The notes beneath the pieces are model-generated. The model was not told the DNA's origin. It saw only the letters and a list, made by a program, of their open reading frames with translations, and did no database searches. Source: Sandaracinus amylolyticus (GTDB lineage: Bacteria; Myxococcota_A; Polyangia; Polyangiales; Sandaracinaceae). From it: a stretch of DNA of 64,000 bases. Positions 42,719-43,198 of this stretch are shown here, piece by piece. Both the position numbers and the translations under genes were made by a program. How positions within the stretch are numbered: the stretch's first letter is position 1; each line of letters begins with the position of its first letter. The stretch lies in contig NZ_CP011125.1 of NCBI RefSeq assembly GCF_000737325.1, forward strand, positions 248,001 through 312,000. Reading direction: 5' to 3'.

Positions 42719-43143
42719 TGGACGCAGGGACGAAGCGCGGCCTCGTGGCGCTCGCCTCGGGCGCGCTCTTCGCGATCGGCCTCGTGGTGAGCGGGATGAC
42801 GCAGCCCGCGAACGTGATCGGCTTCCTCGACGTGACCGGCGACTGGCGGCCCGCGCTGATGTTCGTGATGGTCGGCGCGATCGCGGTGAACGCAGCGGTG
42901 TACCGGTGGGTGCGCGGCCGGCGCGCGCCGGTGCTCGCGGAGACGTTCTCGCTGCCAACCCAGCGCGACCTCGATGCGCGGCTGATCGCGGGCGCGGCGA
43001 TCTTCGGCGTCGGCTGGGGGCTCGGCGGCTACTGTCCGGGGCCGGGCGTGACCGCGCTCGCGAGCGGGTCGCTCGAGGCCGTGGTGTTCGTCGGCTCGAT
43101 GGTCGCGGCGATGTGGGTCGTCGCGCGCATCGAGAAGCGCTGA
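42718..43143 (+). CDS. YeeE/YedE family transporter, second half
   Basis: A 141-residue membrane protein with four hydrophobic segments and the second YeeE-type motif, WGLGGYCPGPGVTALASGS (near residue 100), with one Cys. It is the translationally coupled partner of the preceding gene and completes a two-component YeeE/YedE transporter (DUF6691-like partner). The TGA stop at 43141-43143 is at the same time the first three bases of a TGAAACG-T-CGTTTCA dyad. It converges on the GT39-like gene. Confidence 0.87.
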   Translation: MDAGTKRGLVALASGALFAIGLVVSGMTQPANVIGFLDVTGDWRPALMFVMVGAIAVNAAVYRWVRGRRAPVLAETFSLPTQRDLDARLIAGAAIFGVGWGLGGYCPGPGVTALASGSLEAVVFVGSMVAAMWVVARIEKR

Positions 43144-43198
43144 AACGTCGTTTCACCTGGCTGAAACGACGTTTCACCGTGCGTGAAACGTCGTTTCA
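43141..43198. repeat. three tandem 15-base palindromes between convergent genes
   Basis: TGAAACG-W-CGTTTCA is present three times, all perfect: 43141-43155, 43162-43176 and 43184-43198. Starts are 21 and 22 bases apart, about two helical turns. The outer TGA and TCA are the stop codons of the flanking convergent genes. It could be an operator array, a terminator-like element or a structural protein-binding site; relatives of the motif lie at both ends of tauE. Confidence 0.75.

Follow-up and report, generated by a model that had tools for sequence, protein, structure and literature searches.

A candidate FisR-type enhancer cluster at the 3′ end of sulfur-detoxification genes in Sandaracinus amylolyticus

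Among the closest described systems is the FisR regulon of Cupriavidus and Acinetobacter baumannii, in which a sigma-54 activator controls pdo-sqr-tauE. Cupriavidus FisR harbors three sensor-domain Cys residues. The yeeE-yedE-pdo2 operons controlled by BigR/SqrR, of which BigR is an ArsR-type repressor, carry the same transporter and dioxygenase genes as the locus analyzed here; unlike in those operons, the sites described below track a sigma-54 activator. In A. baumannii, sulfide induction of operon A1S_1707-1711 is lost in a fisR deletion, and FisR itself lacks the sensor-domain Cys residues (PMC7315123). A further comparison concerns position, since the RocR enhancer sits downstream of Bacillus subtilis rocG, according to PMC4941409.

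The window, the whole 64-kb stretch of DNA that was analyzed, belongs to the 10.3-Mb genome G000 and contains a cluster of pdo, tauE and yeeE genes. This cluster resembles the FisR regulon in the architecture of its candidate activator, in a divergent or adjacent pdo and in its predicted sigma-54 promoters, and it shares with the A. baumannii regulon clusters of TGAAAC half-sites, which there lie in the fisR–pdo region. It differs from the FisR regulon in that the G000 regulator gene is unlinked to the sulfur cluster, yeeE1 and yeeE2 are part of the cluster, and sqr is absent; additional groups of sites where convergent genes end and a single invariant sensor Cys (in an LLCG motif) are further differences. 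No match to sqr was obtained at E 1e-20 in the whole G000 genome, and the sulfide-oxidation step is therefore either missing or carried out by another enzyme. In the G002 relative, DUF1641 and type III sqr genes lie between tauE and pdo (L070:9294-11263). The features of the window are as follows.

40079-41194, minus strand: pdo, metallo-beta-lactamase plus rhodanese, persulfide dioxygenase type
41199-41245, strand not applicable: sites between tauE and pdo, CGAAACGATGTTTCA, which holds the tauE stop, and TGAAACGCGTGTTTCA
41211-42074, minus strand: tauE, sulfite exporter TauE/SafE
42092-42107, minus strand: weaker predicted sigma-54 promoter of tauE-pdo, CGGCACGCCCGTCGCA
42160-42209, strand not applicable: promoter-side candidate enhancer sites in the tauE/yeeE1 spacer, CGAAACGTGACGTTTCA, TGAAACG and AGAAACG
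42250-42265, plus strand: predicted sigma-54 -24/-12 promoter of yeeE1-yeeE2, TGGCACGGCGACTGCG
42293-42718, plus strand: yeeE1, Sulf_transp half-transporter (domain match)
42718-43143, plus strand: yeeE2, DUF6691, YeeE/YedE partner (domain match)
43141-43155, strand not applicable: dyad 1, TGAAACGTCGTTTCA, whose TGA at 43141-43143 is the yeeE2 stop
43162-43176, strand not applicable: dyad 2, TGAAACGACGTTTCA, the middle copy
43184-43198, strand not applicable: dyad 3, TGAAACGTCGTTTCA, whose TCA at 43196-43198 is the stop (TGA) of the GT39-like gene
43196-44863, minus strand: GT39-like gene, PMT_2, convergent neighbor of yeeE2

The array at 43141-43198 consists of three copies of a perfect TGAAACG-W-CGTTTCA dyad at steps of 21 and 22 bp. 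An earlier note on this DNA had reported these dyads, the use of the array ends as the stops of yeeE2 and the GT39-like gene, and a dyad at the tauE stop; positions and steps were found exactly so, and the tauE stop (TCA at 41211-41213) indeed falls within CGAAACGATGTTTCA. Two further groups of sites, at 41230-41245 and at 42160-42209, do not appear in that note, nor does a second pdo locus of the genome where the arrangement recurs (L021:9875-9911). The sites at 42160-42209 lie 40 to 90 bp upstream of the predicted promoter TGGCACGGCGACTGCG and align with, and are kept in, G002, where the counterpart of that promoter reads TGGCACGCGGGCTGCG. The 3′ array is found ≈0.9 kb downstream of TGGCACGGCGACTGCG and ≈1.05 kb from the tauE promoter; the GT39-like gene is probably not part of the sulfur regulon.

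Chance can be dismissed as the origin of the array from the counts in the window, in the genome and in a reversed control. All six occurrences of GAAAC-N2-6-GTTTC in the window fall within 41200-43197, versus 0.02 expected, and three of the five perfect TGAAACG-N0-3-CGTTTCA matches in the genome are those of the array (reversed control, 0); for the 15-bp dyad, the base composition of the genome predicts ≈0.003 copies in 10.3 Mb. The shorter GAAAC-N2-6-GTTTC motif occurs at 23 places genome-wide versus ≈6 expected from composition, with six in the window cluster, four at the second pdo locus (L021), two at the activator gene locus (L022), two in a tandem repeat, and the others as scattered singles. 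Half-sites helically phased at ≈10 and 21 bp recur in the pdo/yeeE/tauE loci of this genome and at one sigma-54 activator gene elsewhere in it, and the earlier note was right to take the even spacing as a sign of protein binding. The two dyads at L023 (G000:C1:2993166/2993207) were rejected as regulon sites, as they belong to an unrelated tandem repeat; intergenic copies of its ≈41-bp unit (gcgctgaaggaaacggcgtttctcgtgcggttttcgcc) extend over L023:8160-8290 and are unrelated to the array.

The candidate activator for these sites is encoded elsewhere in the genome.

G000:C1:1582800-1584149 (L022:8798-10150), minus strand: candidate activator gene, sigma-54 AAA+ with Fis-type HTH

The product matches Pfam Sigma54_activat (1e-66) and HTH_8 (5e-12) and contains the sequence HVRGAFTGA, with an N-terminal PAS_4 match at an E value of 7e-4, which is weaker than Pfam's own cut-off. 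The sensor-domain Cys of the LLCG motif is invariant in seven aligned homologs. Orthologs of the activator are found within a few kb of pdo, tauE or yeeE genes in at least 12 relatives (linkage to sulfur genes is seen in G052, G045, G037, G055, G049, G015, G012, G007 and others). A TGAAACGCGTGTTTCA dyad also lies inside the activator coding region (L022:9717-9732), in the same place in G002, G052, G045 and G037 and in variant form in G055 and G049; since the peptide encoded there (MKHAFH/MKRVFH) is conserved, the dyad may be a codon-level coincidence or an internal site. At the same locus, a palindrome-like CGATTGTGCGCAATCG (L022:8190-8222) is found upstream of osmC, which is closely followed by a MarR-like gene; the palindrome looks like an OhrR-type operator.

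The half-sites follow the presence of this activator among the relatives. Pairs of TGAAAC/GTTTCA half-sites 6 to 26 bp apart number 95 in the loci of activator-bearing genomes, a count that includes the in-gene dyad (L022:9718), versus 0.25 expected, while the activator-less genomes, defined as those without a match at an E 1e-100 cut, contain three, all in G032. The G032 contig stops ≈470 bp past yeeE2, where G052 carries the activator. Per locus, and with the in-gene dyad excluded here and from the spacing counts, pairs are present in 12 of 21 activator-linked loci and in 1 of 19 loci of activator-less genomes, for which the Fisher p of 0.0005 is a guide only, because the ranges were set with the data in view, many sites are homologous, genomes and loci are related, and the counts are not independent. 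In the other nine activator-linked loci, no perfect pair of half-sites is present other than in the activator gene itself, which tells against the link. The contrast holds within genus g1 (G000 and G002 with the activator versus G001 with none) and within genus g9 (G012 and G020 versus G040, G047 and G050). Among the 89 spacings of 6 to 26 bp, 87 are 9 to 13 or 19 to 23 bp, ranges that were picked after inspection of the data, and such spacings would thus place the half-sites on one face of the helix.

The same half-site is found next to a FisR gene of known function. In an A. baumannii record (CM018764.1, L245), fisR lies next to pdo, sqr-like, tauE and homoserine dehydrogenase genes that match the FisR-dependent operon, and the fisR–pdo spacer harbors four TGAAAC in 38 bp (L245:5713-5750, at 5713, 5727, 5734 and 5745) together with a candidate sigma-54 promoter, TGGCATCTTATTTGCA, on the pdo strand. 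The record is a 44-kb "plasmid" with seemingly chromosomal genes (the fisR operon and dehydrogenase genes) and may be a misassigned chromosome. In Methylococcus, Methylomonas and a deltaproteobacterium, TGAAAC half-sites accompany FisR-like activators and pdo, and in the last of these a perfect sigma-54 promoter, TGGCACGGCGCTTGCT, lies just upstream of pdo. Because these loci carry it, TGAAAC is, on comparison of sequences, very probably a FisR-type half-site, and the array very probably a cluster of such sites linked to the activator.

The overlap of the array with stop codons we take to be an incidental by-product. In a genome of 73% GC, stops are scarce, and each half-site begins with TGA, so that a reading frame entering the array ends at the first in-frame half-site. 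Such overlap recurs in both G000 and G002 at tauE, the activator gene and the second pdo. Stop codons as the function of the array were rejected, since arrays also persist where no stop falls in them, as in G052 and at yeeE2 of G002, whose stop lies ≈80 bp before the array.

The second pdo (L021:8777-9877) provides another example, its own stop and that of a convergent gene being formed by the two dyads at 9875-9911. This 3′ dyad pair is kept in G002 though the downstream gene differs from that of G000, and the stop of the different gene again lies inside a half-site. The sigma-54 promoter of the second pdo, TGGCACCCGCGTTGCT, is identical in the two genomes, with no perfect TGAAAC/GTTTCA half-site over the ≈580 bp that precede it or the ≈1.1 kb that follow it.

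In the mechanism we propose, the FisR-type activator, with its PAS-like sensor, AAA+ domain with GAFTGA and Fis-type HTH, would bind the helically phased TGAAAC half-sites in response to a sulfane-sulfur or sulfide signal, as assumed by analogy with known FisR. Activator bound at the array could then loop over ≈0.9 to 1.1 kb to sigma-54 RNA polymerase at the divergent yeeE1-yeeE2 and tauE-pdo promoters, and the array would act as a downstream enhancer, like the RocR site of B. subtilis rocG. On balance we favor this reading as a whole, a FisR-type enhancer (UAS) cluster that serves the sulfur-detoxification genes from downstream; we consider it slightly more probable that the 3′ copy works where it now lies than that it is silent there. 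It is unusual for enhancer sites to follow their genes and not precede them, and the presence of promoter-side sites at yeeE1/tauE means that the 3′ array is not indispensable. As at rocG, a candidate sigma-54 enhancer lies 3′ of the gene that it would control, which by position applies to both 43141-43198 and L021:9875-9911, and, as in the rocG-rocABC region, the G002 sites that follow yeeE2 might in addition act on the gene behind them. The activator and regulon differ from those of RocR/rocG, and the activity of the G000 array is a prediction; this array lies between convergent genes, so that there is no following gene for which it could be the UAS. In favor of action from the 3′ end, convergent 3′-end clusters recur in G000, G002, G052 and G049: G052 harbors four half-sites between the convergent activator and yeeE2 genes, with both stops outside the cluster, and in G049 two half-sites separate pdo from a convergent ORF. 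The retained 3′ dyad pair of the second pdo, and the lack of half-sites near its promoter, point the same way. A more far-reaching and rather tentative suggestion is that the FisR enhancers of Sandaracinus-type and related myxobacteria preferentially occupy convergent 3′ ends of target operons, act only from a distance, and persist while neighbor genes come and go.

The main rival is that the array is the left-over UAS of a vanished pdo2/Blh-type dioxygenase gene; on this view the gene lay behind yeeE2, and its loss left the sites stranded between yeeE2 and the GT39-like gene. In G002, a Blh-like metallo-beta-lactamase gene does lie between yeeE2 and the GT39 gene, with its own sigma-54-like promoter, CGGCACGGCCGCTGCT (L070:7055), and sites 80 to 130 bp upstream of that promoter (L070:7148-7197); this gene has no ortholog in G000, hence the G000 array may be the UAS of the lost gene. 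The sqr of the same G002 cluster is also absent from G000, and the G000 tauE–pdo junction resembles a deletion scar, with the end of tauE fused to the sqr–pdo spacer. However, all three dyads are perfect and surpass the promoter-side sites, and thus give no sign of decay; their layout differs from that of the G002 UAS; and convergent 3′-end arrays recur elsewhere, even where neighbor genes have changed. We regard this origin as unlikely, if worth serious consideration.

The earlier note had leaned toward a terminator, roadblock or structural element, a view that does not fit the half-sites, which in many genomes precede sigma-54 promoters of this regulon and which track the presence of one activator gene. 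That note had set against its own reading loci with the same genes, no array and other stop codons; these exist in part, in that activator-less relatives keep the genes without the sites. In favor of an RNA-level bidirectional terminator or processing hairpin for both convergent transcripts, dyads 1 and 2 can pair as a 15-bp stem (plus-strand fold, -42.1 kcal/mol; z, -4.5), but tandem palindromic DNA sites fold in this way by construction, and direct-repeat versions that cannot do so lie upstream of sigma-54 promoters. An intrinsic terminator, sought as a GC-rich stem followed by a U-run, was rejected, with no U-run and no match in a terminator scan at the array, and an RNA role is very improbable. 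Finally, sites of another protein, such as a PsrA-like TetR repressor, ParB at parS, or a roadblock or chromosome-structure protein, are a highly improbable explanation. GAAAC...GTTTC may resemble PsrA and parS half-sites, but the sites are concentrated at the sulfur loci and at the activator gene, and their occurrence among genomes follows that of the activator. The parS reading, like that of a single facing dyad, was rejected because GTTTCAC faces GTGAAAC at one place only in the window, across a 5-bp spacer.

Read as FisR-type enhancers, the array and its counterparts would add natural examples of sigma-54 enhancers located 3′ of their target genes; to our knowledge, few are known (rocG). 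A consensus for FisR-type enhancers also emerges that can be tested, namely TGAAAC half-sites repeated in tandem and in helical phase. It would be shared from gammaproteobacteria to myxobacteria, and FisR regulons would thus be predictable from sequence.
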